Below, piece after piece: positions 28,332-34,078 of a stretch of 37,128 bases of DNA. Every line of letters begins with the position of its first letter. The first letter of the stretch is position 1. Under the pieces are notes generated by a model. That model saw nothing but the letters and a program-made list of their open reading frames with translations, did no database searches and was not told the DNA's origin. The DNA is from Porticoccaceae bacterium (GTDB lineage: Bacteria; Pseudomonadota; Gammaproteobacteria; Pseudomonadales; Porticoccaceae): positions 1 to 37,128 of the forward strand of contig JAQXEN010000029.1 in NCBI GenBank assembly GCA_029250825.1, written 5' to 3'. Position numbers and translations under genes: made by a program.

Positions 28332-28667
28332 ATGAGAATCGATTATTTAACCCCGGAGGGCACTGCCCTTACAGAAATGGGCCGCAGGCTGGCGCGGGTT
28401 CGCAAGCAACAGGGCTTCTCTCAAATCCGTCTTGCTGAAGAGGCGGGTGTTGGCGTTGCTACTCTACGCCGTATTGAATCCGGCCAAGATGGCCAGATGG
28501 CCTCATGGCTCAAAATTCTCAAAGCGCTACGCATGACCGCGTCCATCGATGGGTTGCTGCCGGAAACCTTTGACTCACCTATGGCTGAAGTACTTTTCGG
28601 CGCCAAGAAAAGCAACAGGGCAGGGGTGGCTGAGGGAGGGATTCGCTGGGGTGATGAACGAGAATGA
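28332..28667 (+). CDS. hipB: HipB-type antitoxin, XRE family DNA-binding protein
   Basis: A 111-residue antitoxin and repressor. A Cro/C1-type helix-turn-helix occupies about 13-70 (LARVRKQQGFSQIRLAEEAGVGVATLRRIESG). The C-terminal tail is variable, and in known HipB it helps hold the toxin inactive. Two palindromes upstream are its probable operators. The Shine-Dalgarno is weak (GGTGAT). It overlaps hipA by 4 nt (ATGA), ensuring antitoxin is made with toxin. Confidence 0.88.
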   Translation: MRIDYLTPEGTALTEMGRRLARVRKQQGFSQIRLAEEAGVGVATLRRIESGQDGQMASWLKILKALRMTASIDGLLPETFDSPMAEVLFGAKKSNRAGVAEGGIRWGDERE

Positions 28668-29974
28668 CTACTGCGACGGTAAAGCTCTGGGGCACCACTA
28701 TTGGCTATATTGCGATGGACCGCGGCGAGCGCTTTGCGCGTTTTGAGTATGCTCCAGATTTCGAAGGTTTTGGTATAGAGCCTGCACCATTGATGATGCC
28801 AGTGCAAAGCAGGCGTATCTATCAGTTTCCCGATCTGCACCCAAGGTCATTTCACGGCATGCCAGGACTGATTGCCGACAGCTTACCGGACAAATATGGT
28901 CAGCGACTGATCGATGTGTGGCTGGCGCAAACTGGGCGCAATCCGGCAGACTTTAATGGGGTTGATCGTCTCTGTTATACCGGCACTCGTGGAATGGGCG
29001 CTCTGGAGTTTGAACCCTCCGCAGGGCCTGACAAAACTGAGGGTAGATTGCTGGCGATCGAAGATTTAACTGAGCTCGCGTCAATGGCCTTTGCCAGCAA
29101 AGAGGCGCTGAATGCGAGATTTACCGAGGCCAGTTCCAGTGAGGTAGGGGATAAAGAGGCCTTGCTGGATATCTTAAAGGTTGGCACCTCCGCCGGTGGT
29201 GCGCGGGCCAAAGCCGTTGTTGCTTTTAATTCTCAAACCAAACAGGTTCGTTCCGGGCAACTGCATTTGCCCAAGGGATTTGAGCACTGGCTGATCAAGT
29301 TCGACGGCGTAAAATTTAGCGGTGACTGGGGTGTTGCAGATCCCTCAGGCTATGGCTTGCTCGAATACAGTTATCACCTTATGGCTAAAGAGTGCGGCAT
29401 TAATATGATGGAAAGCCGTCTCCTCTCAGAAAATGGCCGCGATCACTTTATGACCAGACGTTTTGATCGCGATGGGGAGGGTAATAAAAAGCTTGTTCAA
29501 ACCTTCGCTGCACTGGCTCACTATGATTACTATGAAAGTGGCTATCACTCCTACGAGCAACTCTTTATGGCCATGAAACGCTTAGATATTCCCAAGCCTG
29601 CCTTCGAGGAACAGTTCCGTCGTGTGGTGTTTAATATTGTCGGCTGTAACCAAGACGATCATGTTAAAAATTTCGCTTTTATGATGGATCGCAAGGGCAA
29701 GTGGGATCTGTCTCCCGCCTACGATCTCTGTCATAGCGAAGGCAGCGAATTTACCCGCAATCATCAACTCAGTATCAATGGTAAAACAAACGACTTTGAT
29801 CGCGGTGATTTAAAGCATCTAGCACAATATGCCGGCCTGCCGCGGGGTAGTGAAAAACAGATTATTCAGCGCACGGTGGAGGCCTTTTCGACTTGGCAGG
29901 CAATTGCCACTGATCTCAGTATTCCTGCCAAGTTACAAAAACATGTTCTGGGTACCCTGCGATTAAAAATATAA
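28664..29974 (+). CDS. hipA: HipA-type serine/threonine kinase toxin
   Basis: A 436-residue toxin kinase. In E. coli HipA phosphorylates glutamyl-tRNA synthetase and causes growth arrest. The N-terminal HipA domain carries YTGTRGMGALEFEP. The Gly-rich loop GTSAGGARAK (174-183) has Ser176, aligning with autophosphorylated Ser150 of E. coli by its spacing to Lys183. The catalytic loop is CNQDDHVKNF (Asp331, Lys335, Asn336) and the metal-binding Asp354 is in AYDLCHS. All catalytic residues are intact, so the toxin looks functional. The length matches E. coli HipA (440). HipA homologues vary in target, so the substrate is not certain. Confidence 0.92.
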   Translation: MTTATVKLWGTTIGYIAMDRGERFARFEYAPDFEGFGIEPAPLMMPVQSRRIYQFPDLHPRSFHGMPGLIADSLPDKYGQRLIDVWLAQTGRNPADFNGVDRLCYTGTRGMGALEFEPSAGPDKTEGRLLAIEDLTELASMAFASKEALNARFTEASSSEVGDKEALLDILKVGTSAGGARAKAVVAFNSQTKQVRSGQLHLPKGFEHWLIKFDGVKFSGDWGVADPSGYGLLEYSYHLMAKECGINMMESRLLSENGRDHFMTRRFDRDGEGNKKLVQTFAALAHYDYYESGYHSYEQLFMAMKRLDIPKPAFEEQFRRVVFNIVGCNQDDHVKNFAFMMDRKGKWDLSPAYDLCHSEGSEFTRNHQLSINGKTNDFDRGDLKHLAQYAGLPRGSEKQIIQRTVEAFSTWQAIATDLSIPAKLQKHVLGTLRLKI

Positions 29975-30128: not shown

Positions 30129-31076
30129 ATGAAACTTATTACCGGTCAGAGAATTCTCAGCACAGTTAGCAATATTGGCCCTGGACTGAGTCGCTCGCCG
30201 CTCAAGTCTTTTCGATTTATCTATGACAGCTTTGATCAGCTATTTGGCAGCGGCTCTCGATCAGATGTCACCACGGAGGACAGATCAATCGATGTGGGTG
30301 CCCGTGAACTGGGCATTAGAATTTACCGGCCTAGCAAAGCTAAGCCCAAGCTAACCATGATCTACTTTCATGGCGGTGGCTACGTGATTGGTGGATTTAA
30401 AAGTCATCATGGCTTTTGTAGCCTATTGGCGAGTGAGGCCAATATAAACCTTATTGCAGTGGATTATCGACTAGCACCTGAGAGTCCATTCCCTGGCCCA
30501 TTACAAGATGGTTTGGACGCTTGGAACTGGGTGATAGATCATGCCACGGAGCTGGGTATTGCCCAGACCCAAATTGGTATGGGTGGTGATAGTGCTGGGG
30601 GCAATTTGACCGCGGTATTATCCATGCAGACTTTCGGTGATCTCTTGGACGGGGACTTAAAGGTAGCGCCAGCGTTTCAATTTTTGCTCTATCCTTGGGT
30701 CGATATGAGTGGTGAGTCAGATTCGATTCGGCGTTTTGCTAAGGGTTTGATATTGACCGAGGAAACTATGACCTTTTTTCGCGACTCCTATTTGCCCAAA
30801 GAAATGGAACCACAGGCTATCAAAACCAGCCCGATTCTCTGTGAGGATATGAGCGCAACGCCAAATACATTGATGGTGACCGCGGAATACGATGTGTTGA
30901 GAGATGAAGGTCTGGCCTTTGTGGATAAGTTGCAACAGGCACAGGTGTCGGTATCTCATCTTCATTTGCCAGATTGCACCCACGGGTTTATCTCGACGGG
31001 CAAATTTAGCCCAGCAACGCGCAAACGTTTAAAACAAGTCGCCGCTATGTTTGATACATATGCAACCAATCTCTAA
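30129..31076 (+). CDS. alpha/beta hydrolase, HSL/acetyl-esterase type
   Basis: A 315-residue esterase of the hormone-sensitive-lipase family. The oxyanion-hole motif HGGG is at 81-84. The catalytic triad is Ser155 (GGDSAGGN), Asp255 (EYDVLRDEG) and His285 (CTHGF). There is no signal peptide, so it is cytosolic. AGAGG precedes the ATG by 8 nt. The family cleaves small acyl esters, and kynurenine formamidases of the alpha/beta type share this fold. Because of the cluster to its right, a formamidase role is a possible inference but not supported by a specific motif. It is convergent with the Lrp gene. Confidence 0.85.
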   Translation: MKLITGQRILSTVSNIGPGLSRSPLKSFRFIYDSFDQLFGSGSRSDVTTEDRSIDVGARELGIRIYRPSKAKPKLTMIYFHGGGYVIGGFKSHHGFCSLLASEANINLIAVDYRLAPESPFPGPLQDGLDAWNWVIDHATELGIAQTQIGMGGDSAGGNLTAVLSMQTFGDLLDGDLKVAPAFQFLLYPWVDMSGESDSIRRFAKGLILTEETMTFFRDSYLPKEMEPQAIKTSPILCEDMSATPNTLMVTAEYDVLRDEGLAFVDKLQQAQVSVSHLHLPDCTHGFISTGKFSPATRKRLKQVAAMFDTYATNL

Positions 31077-31103
31077 TAGAGTGAGTAGCTTTATTTAACC
31101 GCC

Positions 31104-31125
31104 ACTTTTTCGCCCTGTAAAAAGT
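31104..31125. terminator. possible hairpin terminator between convergent genes
   Basis: Stem ACTTTTT/AAAAAGT (31104-31110, 31119-31125) with an 8-nt loop. Outer arms AACC/GGTT (31097-31100, 31129-31132) can also pair. It is AT-rich and therefore weak. It touches the lrp stop codon. Confidence 0.35.
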
Positions 31126-31622
31126 TAGGGTTTAATAAGCTTAGGTGAGCGATGAGCCATGGTCTGATTGAGAATAATGGTCGACTCTATATCTTCCACC
31201 TGTTCTACAGTGGCCAGCTTGTCCTTTAAGAACGATTCAAATGTCTTCAGGTTTTTTGTCACTACACGCAGTGCATAATCATGCACGCCGGCCAGAACAC
31301 AGCACTCCAATACCTCCGTAAATTCCCCGATCGCCGCTTCAAATGAGGCTGCATTGCTGGAAGTGTTTTTATTTAATTTTATAAACACAAAGGCCGAGAC
31401 GCCAATGCCCAGCATGCTGTGATTTAAGCGCGCCGTATACTGCTCGATAAGGCCGCTCTGCTCCAGTTTACGCAGACGCCGCAGACAGGGAGTCTGGGAC
31501 AGATTGACCAGAGCCGAGAGTTCGGCATTACTGATCCGCGCATTGGCCTGCAGAGCATTGAGAATCTTGATATCGGTATTGTCGAGGCTGATGTTATCTG
31601 TGCTCTGGGTGTTTGGGGGCAT
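31125..31622 (-). CDS. Lrp/AsnC family transcriptional regulator
   Basis: A 165-residue regulator from the ATG at 31622 (a TTG two codons earlier is less likely). The N-terminal AsnC-type helix-turn-helix (about 17-65, NAELSALVNLSQTPCLRRLRKLEQSGLI) is followed by the RAM effector-binding domain (about 75-160), which binds amino acids. It is divergent from the PrnB-like/kynureninase-like operon. The same arrangement is known for KynR, the Lrp-type regulator next to kynBAU, so it probably senses tryptophan, kynurenine or a related amino acid. A perfect TATAAT on the minus strand (31660-31655) is a likely -10. Confidence 0.9.
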   Translation of the reverse strand: MPPNTQSTDNISLDNTDIKILNALQANARISNAELSALVNLSQTPCLRRLRKLEQSGLIEQYTARLNHSMLGIGVSAFVFIKLNKNTSSNAASFEAAIGEFTEVLECCVLAGVHDYALRVVTKNLKTFESFLKDKLATVEQVEDIESTIILNQTMAHRSPKLIKP

Positions 31623-31670
31623 AATCAACTCAATATTATAAAAAATAGAGTCTTATTATACAGATTGCGC

Positions 31671-31680
31671 CCCTATAGGG
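31671..31680. promoter_or_regulatory. palindrome CCCTATAGGG, candidate Lrp-type operator
   Basis: A perfect 10-bp palindrome between the divergent genes, flanked by AGTCT (31649-31653) and AGACT (31681-31685) as an outer inverted repeat. It overlaps the expected -35 region of the lrp promoter. Confidence 0.4.
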
Positions 31681-31689
31681 AGACTATTT

Positions 31690-31713
31690 GGCCGAAAGCG
31701 TTATCGGCCTTTT
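31690..31713 (+). terminator. terminator-like hairpin in the leader of the PrnB-like operon
   Basis: Stem GGCCGA/TCGGCC (31690-31695, 31704-31709) with an 8-nt loop, then TTTTG. It lies about 50 nt upstream of the first gene, so it may be an attenuator if transcription starts upstream. The rightward promoter is not clear. Confidence 0.4.
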
Positions 31714-31763
31714 GTTACTATTTATTTATTCGGAAACCGCCAGAAAAATAGGTAGAACAGCTC

Positions 31764-32987
31764 ATGACCGAGAAAGCTAAGGCCCTTGATCAATGGATTC
31801 GCAGCGATTTTAGAGAGATCAATACGGCACTAGAAGAACTTCATTTTAGCCAGCCGAATCGACTGCCTGACGATGCCCTAGGCGGCGCTTTAAAGCAGCG
31901 CTTGGCGGAAGAGGGCAGAGCCCTGATCAGCGAGCTACTCGATGAAGGCAATACAGACGAAGGTTTTGATAGCGGTTTCGACCTGCTCGGCAATGTGGGT
32001 TTTTATATGGGCGCCTGCCGCCGCCATGAAATCACTGAACCCTCCAGAGAAACCCGCTCACCCCTTCAGGAAGCCTCGGCGCTGGCAATGCAGTTAGGTG
32101 CCTCTCTAGGTGTGATTCCACGTTTTGCCTCCAGTCATTTGGAGACCCACAACCGCGCGATCAATGGTGTCTACAAAACCTTCACCGATCTTGAAGACGA
32201 AAAGCTGTTTCTCGATTACAACACCCGCAGTGTGTTTGCCTTTATCCGTGCCTCAGAGGCGCTGCGCCAGATCCTGCCCCTCGGCGTCTCCCACCCGGTA
32301 ACCTACGATCTGCTGCTGAGCGCCAAACAGTCTCTTGAAGAGGTCTATGCCTACAACCAAGAATTATTTGAAAAGCTCGATGTGGATCGTTTCTTTTATT
32401 GCGTCAGGCCCTATTACCGACCTCACCGTGTAGGGCTCCACGAATATCGCGGCGCCAATGCCGGGGATTTTTCCGGGATCAATGTGATCGATCTATTGCT
32501 CGGTCTGTGCCGCGCCGATGATCCCTATTACTCGCAACTACTGGTGGATAAGTTCTTATTTATGCGTCCGGATGATCAGTTGGTATTGCGGGATTGTATG
32601 CGCCGAACCAGTTTGCTCGATAGCTTTTTAGATAGCTGTTTAGGCAGCAGTTCAGAAAGCGGTTTAGACCGCTTTTCACAAAGTAGGGAGGCGGACAAAA
32701 ATCAGCCCTGCATAGAAAAAAACCTCAGGCTATTTTTACAGGTCTGTCATGCCCATGGCCAGACCGCGCTGCAGCATCACGAGCAGTTGGTGAATAAATT
32801 TATTCAGCGACCTGCGGATGACGGCGCACTTACCGAGACTCAGGGTATTACCGCCAGCGGCCCACCTTTGCCAGTATTATTAAAAAGTCTTCGTAAACTC
32901 TGCGATATGCGCTGTGCGGCGGATGTGGGAGGCGAGTTTAAAACTCGTCATAAAGATATTGAATACCTTAAAGGCTTGTTGCTATGA
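31764..32987 (+). CDS. PrnB-like (DUF1864) protein, IDO/TDO superfamily
   Basis: A 407-residue protein resembling the PrnB/DUF1864 family. PrnB is a heme protein structurally related to indoleamine and tryptophan dioxygenases and acts on a tryptophan derivative in pyrrolnitrin synthesis. Visible family-like segments are LLGNVGFYMGACRRHEI, RGANAGDFSGINVIDLLLG and HAHGQTALQHH (329-339). The last is a plausible source of the axial heme ligand; I cannot prove it. It has no signal peptide. A Ser-rich insertion (about 283-310) separates the two conserved parts. It overlaps the kynureninase-like gene by 4 nt. The pairing suggests ring opening of a tryptophan-like substrate followed by side-chain cleavage. 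Confidence 0.7.
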   Translation: MTEKAKALDQWIRSDFREINTALEELHFSQPNRLPDDALGGALKQRLAEEGRALISELLDEGNTDEGFDSGFDLLGNVGFYMGACRRHEITEPSRETRSPLQEASALAMQLGASLGVIPRFASSHLETHNRAINGVYKTFTDLEDEKLFLDYNTRSVFAFIRASEALRQILPLGVSHPVTYDLLLSAKQSLEEVYAYNQELFEKLDVDRFFYCVRPYYRPHRVGLHEYRGANAGDFSGINVIDLLLGLCRADDPYYSQLLVDKFLFMRPDDQLVLRDCMRRTSLLDSFLDSCLGSSSESGLDRFSQSREADKNQPCIEKNLRLFLQVCHAHGQTALQHHEQLVNKFIQRPADDGALTETQGITASGPPLPVLLKSLRKLCDMRCAADVGGEFKTRHKDIEYLKGLLL

Positions 32988-34078
32988 ATCCATTTGTTGC
33001 CCACGAGGGAATCTATATGCTGAGTCATTCTGTGGGGCTGCCGGGGGTGGGGGCAGAACAGGCGGCGAGCAATGCTTTTTGGCAGCCGTGGCAGCGTGCA
33101 GATGGCGATATTTGGACACATTGGCTGTCGGAGGTTGAAGCTTTTCGTCAGCAGTTGGCAGTCCTGTTAAACACCGAAATGGCCAATATATGTCCCCAGA
33201 CCAGTCTCTCCAGTGCGGTGTCCAAAATTATTTATTCGTTGCCGAAACCCAGAGAGCGGCGGGTTATTTTATTAAGTGAAGAGGACTTTCCATCAATTGC
33301 CTTTGCCCTTCAAAAAACCACCCATCTCGGCTATCAACTCAAGTTTATTCCTGAGGATACTGACACCTCGGATCTGACCCACTGGGATCAGCAGATGAGT
33401 GATGATGTTGCCATGGTTCTGGTGACTCATGTGCAGTCTAATAATGGACGTCAGCTACCGGTGCAACAGATCACTGAGCTGGCGCGCGACAAAGGTATTC
33501 TATCCCTTGTGGATGTGGCTCAGTCAGCGGCTATTATTCCCATCGATCTGCAGCAATGGCAGGCAGACTTTGTTGTTGGTTCCTCGGTTAAGTGGATTGG
33601 CGGTGGCCCGGGGGCGGCGTTTCTATGGATTAAATTGGAGATGATCGACCAGTGTCAGCCGGATAATGTCGGCTGGTTTTCCCATCAGAACCCCTTTGAA
33701 TTTGATATCCATCATTTTCGCTATGCCACCGACGCACTGCGGTTTTGGGGCGGCACGCCCTCCGTCTATCCCTATGCTTTGGCGACCAATAGTCTGGCTC
33801 ATATTAATACTGTTGGGGTGGAGAGCATTCGCGAGAATAATATTGCGCTCAGTAACAGCATTATTCAGGCCATACCGGCTTCGGTATTAATATCACCCCG
33901 TGCAGTGTCAGAGCGCGGAGGCACCCTGATTCTAAATTTTGGCCAATATCAGCCTAAGGTTATAAGTCAACTGAACGAGTGTCAGGTGCATTTTGATGCT
34001 CGGGCCAAGGGGATTCGGCTGTCGCCTCATAGCTGTAATACTATGGCGCAAATAGACAGGTTAATAAGCTGTTTTTAA
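32984..34078 (+). CDS. kynureninase-like PLP enzyme (aminotransferase class V fold)
   Basis: A 364-residue PLP enzyme, shorter than KynU (about 416). The PLP lysine is Lys203 in SSVKWIGGGPGAAFLW, close to the kynureninase HKW-GGPG-AF pattern. Upstream is the cofactor aspartate in LVDVAQSAA. ERGGTLILNFG near the C-terminus resembles the substrate-carboxylate arginine segment. Kynureninase releases anthranilate and alanine from kynurenine. The ATG overlaps the previous stop (ATGA), so the two enzymes are coupled. A desulfurase or another class V lyase cannot be excluded, but the GGPG motif favours kynureninase. Confidence 0.75.
   Translation: MNPFVAHEGIYMLSHSVGLPGVGAEQAASNAFWQPWQRADGDIWTHWLSEVEAFRQQLAVLLNTEMANICPQTSLSSAVSKIIYSLPKPRERRVILLSEEDFPSIAFALQKTTHLGYQLKFIPEDTDTSDLTHWDQQMSDDVAMVLVTHVQSNNGRQLPVQQITELARDKGILSLVDVAQSAAIIPIDLQQWQADFVVGSSVKWIGGGPGAAFLWIKLEMIDQCQPDNVGWFSHQNPFEFDIHHFRYATDALRFWGGTPSVYPYALATNSLAHINTVGVESIRENNIALSNSIIQAIPASVLISPRAVSERGGTLILNFGQYQPKVISQLNECQVHFDARAKGIRLSPHSCNTMAQIDRLISCF

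Follow-up and report, generated by a model that had tools for sequence, protein, structure and literature searches.

In Pseudomonas, the Lrp-type gene kynR lies divergent from kynBAU, a tryptophan catabolic operon. We analysed a 37,128-nucleotide stretch of DNA from a Porticoccaceae bacterium (GenBank assembly GCA_029250825.1, contig JAQXEN010000029.1; hereafter the window), in which an Lrp/AsnC-type gene, likened to kynR by domain and position alone, is divergent from two coupled genes encoding a PrnB-family (PF08933) protein and a short kynureninase-like pyridoxal 5'-phosphate (PLP) enzyme. The locus differs from kynBAU in that its operon has two genes, and neither kynA nor a kynB equivalog was found in its own genome, which is 91% complete. 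We read the gene pair, with moderate confidence, as an alternative kynurenine module leading from tryptophan through (formyl)kynurenine to anthranilate and alanine, in which the PrnB-family protein, a predicted heme protein, probably stands in for the enzyme that normally opens the kynurenine pathway.

The closest described relative of this protein is SO4414 of Shewanella (PDB 1ZEE and 2NWB), which belongs to the same PF08933 subfamily, is 55% identical and, by the title of its structure, carries heme in the crystal; two Shewanella relatives (L139 and L148) show the same order of Lrp, PrnB-like and PLP genes as the window. The 2NWB title, released in 2006, describes a putative 2,3-dioxygenase (SO4414) in complex with ferric heme, and no reaction for SO4414 was found in the open-licence literature. 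PrnB shares the fold resembling indoleamine 2,3-dioxygenase (IDO) and, in a by-eye alignment, a PR....H....N stretch together with the Arg and Gly of RP..P.R(V/I)G; it differs in its 14–17% identity and in the kynureninase-like partner gene found here. IDO and tryptophan 2,3-dioxygenase (TDO, kynA) resemble the window protein in fold, heme-protein superfamily and predicted role, and a TDO-family gene fills the same place in loci L064 and L178; in contrast, the window protein has no PF03301 (TDO) match, and IDO1 scored at most 17.5 bits against a 42-row profile of the family. Kynureninase (KynU) lies on the same side of the tree as the PLP enzyme and shares its Lys, Asp, Arg and GWFxH, whereas the PLP enzyme has Val/Ile for the Tyr before the Lys and Gln for the His after the Asp, is shorter, and scores below the TIGR01814 cut-off.

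The open-licence literature, outside which most subscription journals lie, gave no account of the function of SO4414 or DUF1864 (presumably the former name of PF08933), or of a PrnB-kynureninase pair. PMC5080296 lists ordinary kynU and kynA. The initial annotation proposed an undescribed route; this wording is overstated because the 2006 PDB title already proposes a putative 2,3-dioxygenase, and what is new is the systematic pairing, the exchange with TDO, the permease and trp context, and a distinct PLP subfamily, the chemistry being predicted. Four open reading frames were recovered at the coordinates first read, flanked by a HipA-type gene and a phoD-type gene, and the annotated layout held, including the 4-bp coupling and the divergent Lrp gene. 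The features are as follows:

31764-32987, forward strand: PrnB-family protein, SO4414-like, 407 amino acids (PF08933), a proposed heme-dependent tryptophan/indole dioxygenase
32984-34078, forward strand: short kynureninase-like PLP enzyme, 364 amino acids (Aminotran_5, 108 bits)
31125-31628, reverse strand: Lrp/AsnC-type regulator with a TTG start (HTH_24, 70.9 bits; HTH_AsnC-type; AsnC_trans_reg, 59.2 bits), divergent from the pair
31685-31702 and 31710-31723, no strand assigned: two partly conserved blocks between the Lrp and PrnB-like genes, a possible operator or promoter
30129-31076, forward strand: alpha/beta hydrolase of the hormone-sensitive lipase type with an HGGG motif (Abhydrolase_3, PF07859, 202 bits), probably outside the module

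Conservation of the gene pair

One genome per species was scanned across 84,980 species, which confirmed 394 stretches; the counts given here use the best 80 of the 394, and two of these (L073 and L116) end at the PrnB-like gene and were set aside, leaving 78 relatives to be judged. The results showed a PLP gene of the window's subfamily beside the PrnB-like gene in 66/78 relatives, downstream on the same strand in 64 and divergent in 2 (L093 and L099), so the pair, whose joint conservation the initial annotation had proposed to survey, does stay together. The 66 include one locus with the PLP gene in pieces (L094) and the contig-end cases L096, L100, L110, L117 and L123, and L108 was counted as partnerless although it comes from the same genome as L103, which has a partner. 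No fewer than 12 named families held such pairs, among them Porticoccaceae, Halieaceae, Cellvibrionaceae, Arenicellaceae, Alteromonadaceae, Endozoicomonadaceae, Oceanospirillaceae, Pseudoalteromonadaceae, Shewanellaceae, Colwelliaceae and Vibrionaceae, and the outer neighbours differed among families. An unbroken subfamily PLP gene was present in 21/23 loci of the genus set (L041–L063, which overlaps the 80-locus set and in which L042 and L052 come from other families); the gene was in pieces in L060, and L063 ends at the PrnB-like gene. Counting the window's own genome, PF08933 was found in 22/50 genus genomes and 24/94 relatives, and in 4/369 class genomes, which are therefore too few for a class-wide co-occurrence test.

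The two window genes overlap by 4 bp, and overlaps of 4–23 bp were common among relatives. Compared with relatives L070 and L071, the PrnB-like gene gave, over its first 292 codons, a nonsynonymous divergence (dN) of 0.04–0.05 and a synonymous divergence (dS) of about 1.2, and the PLP gene gave a dN of 0.11–0.14 and a dS of 1.0–1.4; both genes are therefore under purifying selection. The two genes could in principle be independent neighbours, a heme sensor or storage protein beside a housekeeping class-V enzyme, given that gene order can persist by descent and that 12/78 relatives lack the PLP subfamily beside the PrnB-like gene. We consider this very improbable: adjacency is kept across many families despite differing outer neighbours, overlaps are frequent, and the divergent loci L093 and L099 still keep both genes together.

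Another PLP type, found near L120, L133 and L135, was evaluated as a partner and rejected; it sits at unlinked sites with a CDGSH/cupin-type protein, often together with a transporter (partly judged by eye), and falls outside the kynureninase side of the tree, so these loci were not counted as pairs. A class-V PLP enzyme with Leu/Val before its Lys forms a conserved unit with a CDGSH-cupin-type protein and often a transporter (L225:4631-8366, L226:4177-7909, L231:6272-8538), and this unit is present in several carriers without a PLP partner.

Relationships of the two proteins

The PrnB-family protein matched PF08933 at 598 bits (cut-off 27) over model positions 1–386 of 387, and Shewanella oneidensis SO4414 at 497 bits; the two PrnB sequences in the PDB gave only 32 and 26 bits. 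An AlphaFold model built on a 42-row alignment (mean pLDDT 89.4) matched 2nwb in Foldseek with a root-mean-square deviation of 1.5, followed among the matches listed by PrnB (TMq 0.63–0.68) and then human IDO1 (TMq 0.52–0.63). Heme binding by the window protein is predicted from the heme-bound homologue 2NWB. The fold and heme-site comparison proposed in the initial annotation bore out the IDO-like fold, with heme in the homologue, but left the likeness to true PrnB at about 30 bits. Identity with true PrnB, and hence pyrrolnitrin synthesis, was rejected on sequence distance (26–32 bits) and on the neighbours scanned; no halogenase was found among eight window proteins, the rest of the genome not having been searched for prn genes.

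R215, H125, L126, G224, S365 and H338 were invariant in 81/81 aligned rows. H339, which is His in 80/81 rows, aligned by profile with IDO1 His346, which we take to be the proximal heme ligand. According to PMC11791213, Val117/Tyr104 sets the pocket size in PrnB, and the substrate carboxylate is held by Gly210, Gly211 and Ser319; in our by-eye alignment with the residues given there, L126 falls on the Val117/Tyr104 position and G224 on Gly210. A tandem-repeat stretch (12/24-bp units) at 32619-32683 lies inside the window gene and belongs to an inserted segment of about 16 residues, which is modelled with lower confidence and is lacking in close relatives such as L071. DUF1864 is also named in a table of coral protein domains in PMC6214176, and the family may therefore extend to animals or to organisms associated with them.

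The closest solved structure to the PLP enzyme was Pseudomonas fluorescens kynureninase 1qz9 (97 bits by sequence). In profile scores, 1qz9 led with 140 bits, followed by human kynureninases (99–100), cystine lyase (89) and SufS (85), and the fold search gave TMq 0.91 for 1qz9 versus about 0.85 for SufS. The enzyme retains D177, K203, D338, R340, R345 and GWFSH; its KYNU_C match is under the cut-off (20.4 vs 27 bits), and its 364 amino acids compare with 392–456 in the 11 KynU rows examined. From alignment A3 we took 20 of 31 rows, and from the unlinked set 6 of 9, for a tree of 55 rows. The results showed that kynureninases and the PLP subfamily together split from SufS-type enzymes with support 98/96. 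A cysteine desulfurase identity, which the initial annotation had named as an outcome that would undermine it, was rejected by this separate clade, the fold search alone separating the two poorly. The KynU rows did not form one group, and three divergent KynU joined the PLP subfamily at only 84/70, so its placement within that side of the tree is provisional.

Exchange with TDO and the predicted pathway

Canonical TDO was found in 0/50 genus genomes searched, many of them incomplete and the window's own included, which agrees with the lack of kynA on which the initial annotation depended. Among PF08933 carriers, the search covered 50 of the 80 loci; L136 and L140 were left out and L103 and L108 share a genome, giving 47 carriers, of which one had TDO (class rate 30/369). 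This sole TDO-bearing carrier, L146, has no PLP partner beside its PrnB-like gene.

We further examined 25 TDO-centred loci, in 22 of which TDO was called by profile. In L064 and L178, a divergent TDO overlaps a PLP gene by 8–11 bp; against the window subfamily this PLP gene reaches 504 and 484 bits, and a PF08933 match was absent from the corresponding genomes (G064 and G144). The neighbouring PLP gene scored 68–149 bits at 10 TDO loci, and at 9 loci none was among the neighbours shown. In the tree, the PLP rows of L064 and L178 fell just outside the PrnB-paired members (union 99/100; PrnB-paired set 98/92). The swapped-in TDOs retain the HQ..ELW His, the Arg and the proximal His, for which, as for the GTGGS-like motif, we assume the functional roles they have in TDO.

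In one genus (G195, G311 and G410; L181:6379-7538), a divergent TDO with His where paired TDOs have Arg persists, and the kynureninase-like gene is broken in G410 and was not found adjoining in G195 and G311. At three other loci (L067:5245-7162, L066:4772-6753 and L190:4831-6834), TDO genes overlap or abut a very divergent kynureninase-type gene that belongs to a long-branched clade of its own; those of L066 and L067 match KYNU_C.

Three lines point to tryptophan as the substrate, namely the TDO exchange, the permease and trp context, and the rarity of TDO. In L119, an aromatic amino acid permease gene (426 bits; cut-off 350) begins 17 bp downstream of the PLP gene. Its top-scoring equivalog, tryptophan permease, gives 392 bits and stays under that cut-off of 515, and truA, trpF, trpB and trpA follow further on, each over a family cut-off. 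Genes of this cluster occur at the same spacing in L124 and L125, the model match having been made in L119 only. In L118 (3934-9179), the pair lies in an aromatic catabolism neighbourhood, near a 4-hydroxyphenylpyruvate dioxygenase gene (over cut-off) and an FAD-hydroxylase-like gene (below cut-offs among the matches listed). A link to glutaryl-CoA dehydrogenase through the acyl-CoA dehydrogenase genes beside the pair in L093, L099 and L118 was not used, those of L099 and L118 passing no curated cut-off.

In the proposed mechanism, the SO4414/PrnB-family protein would bind tryptophan over a His-ligated heme and would open the indole C2-C3 bond with O2, as IDO and TDO do, giving N-formylkynurenine. 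The PLP enzyme would then cleave the side chain, directly or after deformylation, to yield anthranilate or its N-formyl form plus alanine. A match to 3-hydroxyanthranilate 3,4-dioxygenase reached E 0.001 in 4/34 carriers and the cut-off in 2/34, none of them the window's own genome, in which the window PLP gene is the sole kynureninase match at E 1e-10; anthranilate is therefore the simplest end product and fits better than 3-hydroxyanthranilate. Deformylation might fall to an unrecognised formamidase, or the PLP enzyme might take formylkynurenine directly, something that its altered site may permit. PF04199, broadly defined, was found in 17/34 carriers, and the arylformamidase test covered 5 of these 17: besides the protein of the window's own genome, four others scored 26–80 bits to the arylformamidase model. 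The own-genome cyclase-family PF04199 gene (L235:4776-9332) adjoins genes resembling both indolepyruvate ferredoxin oxidoreductase subunits, near a Rid-family gene, and this may be another aromatic degradation locus.

The lack of an identified formamidase and the altered PLP site would also suit the same two steps acting on another indole (D-tryptophan, hydroxytryptophan or tryptamine) or on an unusual kynurenine that needs no formamidase. The permease of L119, nearest to tryptophan permeases, and the trpFBA genes nearby, both from one lineage, argue for tryptophan itself, and we regard a different substrate as decidedly unlikely.

Several observations weigh against the kynurenine-module reading. 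On the side of the gene pair, 9/78 relatives have no such PLP gene in the available DNA, and in 3 a different PLP type lies at a distance of about 1 kb. Taken by itself, the TDO deficit is weak (1/47, P = 0.11; P about 0.027 once the 24 relatives are added). In L181 a TDO of this kind adjoins a broken PLP gene, and in L179 and L180 it adjoins none; the swapped-in TDOs are missing both the GTGGS-like motif and an insert, and with this motif lost they may be specialised and perhaps not ordinary TDOs. In relative L042, Gln stands opposite the IDO proximal His, the adjacent H338 being invariant. The PLP enzyme falls under the TIGR01814 kynureninase equivalog cut-off (104 vs 246 bits), and its next fold match is a cysteine desulfurase with an E-value within a factor of ten of that of kynureninase. 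Kynureninase has a catalytically important Tyr just ahead of the Schiff-base Lys; in the window's subfamily the residue at this position is Val/Ile in 31/31 members and Val in 2/2 TDO-paired rows, so that Tyr or His occurs in 0/33 here, compared with Tyr in 11/11 kynureninases and His in 12/13 SufS rows. In addition, Q180 stands where 11/11 kynureninases have His and 11/13 SufS rows have Gln. Finally, as the initial annotation had anticipated for kynB, no KynB equivalog was found in the 91% complete own genome, its sole PF04199 protein scoring 29.5 bits against the 223 of TIGR03035.

The two departures in the PLP active site, the family's name, and relatives that lack the PLP gene and differ in their neighbours (L108, for instance, has a Rieske-oxygenase-like pair next to it) would fit chemistry of the PrnB/MarE type, that is, monooxygenation or rearrangement of tryptophan or another aromatic amine, with the PLP enzyme as another lyase and a specialised metabolite made or detoxified. 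Such an explanation appears unlikely to us: true PrnB is distant in sequence, its product is not known to be a gamma-keto amino acid open to cleavage by a kynureninase-type enzyme, no conserved biosynthetic cluster was seen among the varying outer neighbours, and a TDO-family protein can take the PrnB-like protein's place. The kynurenine-module reading thus keeps the alternative route first proposed, strengthened by the pairing, the kynureninase side of the tree and the absence of TDO from the genus genomes searched, and gives up the role assigned to the hydrolase, the reaction itself being predicted. A bolder form, which we offer tentatively, is that the PrnB-family protein represents a third lineage of tryptophan-opening heme dioxygenases, distinct from TDO and IDO, with its own Tyr-less kynureninase subfamily acting on N-formylkynurenine, and that marine gammaproteobacteria thereby possess a two-enzyme tryptophan degradation that dispenses with formamidase.

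If the kynurenine-module reading is true, it would give a function to a family with a structure known since 2005–2006, account for how SAR92, Shewanella, Pseudoalteromonas, Endozoicomonas and many other marine gammaproteobacteria could break down tryptophan in the absence of kynA, and allow IDO/TDO and PrnB chemistry to be compared in a natural setting. Annotation that seeks only kynA and kynB would miss the module.

Regulator, hydrolase and flanking genes

A divergent Lrp gene was located 40–320 bp from the PrnB-like start in 37/80 relatives, and the Lrp protein, judged by its domain and position, is the pair's probable regulator. Aligning 16 genus-level relatives to the window brought out the two intergenic blocks listed above; a scan with the Lrp consensus gave no shared site, and generic scans for promoters and terminators did not outperform shuffles.

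The HGGG hydrolase gene is convergent with the Lrp gene and does not form one operon with the pair. It was found beside the Lrp gene in 10/18 informative genus loci and was absent in 8/18; these 8 loci keep both pair genes, the PrnB-like gene being broken in L061 and L062. The suggestion of the initial annotation that this hydrolase serves as the formamidase is therefore unsupported, the gene not being consistently conserved with the pair. Upstream, a helix-turn-helix gene and the HipA-type gene (28332-29974) are likely a toxin-antitoxin pair, which accompanies the hydrolase gene in several relatives.

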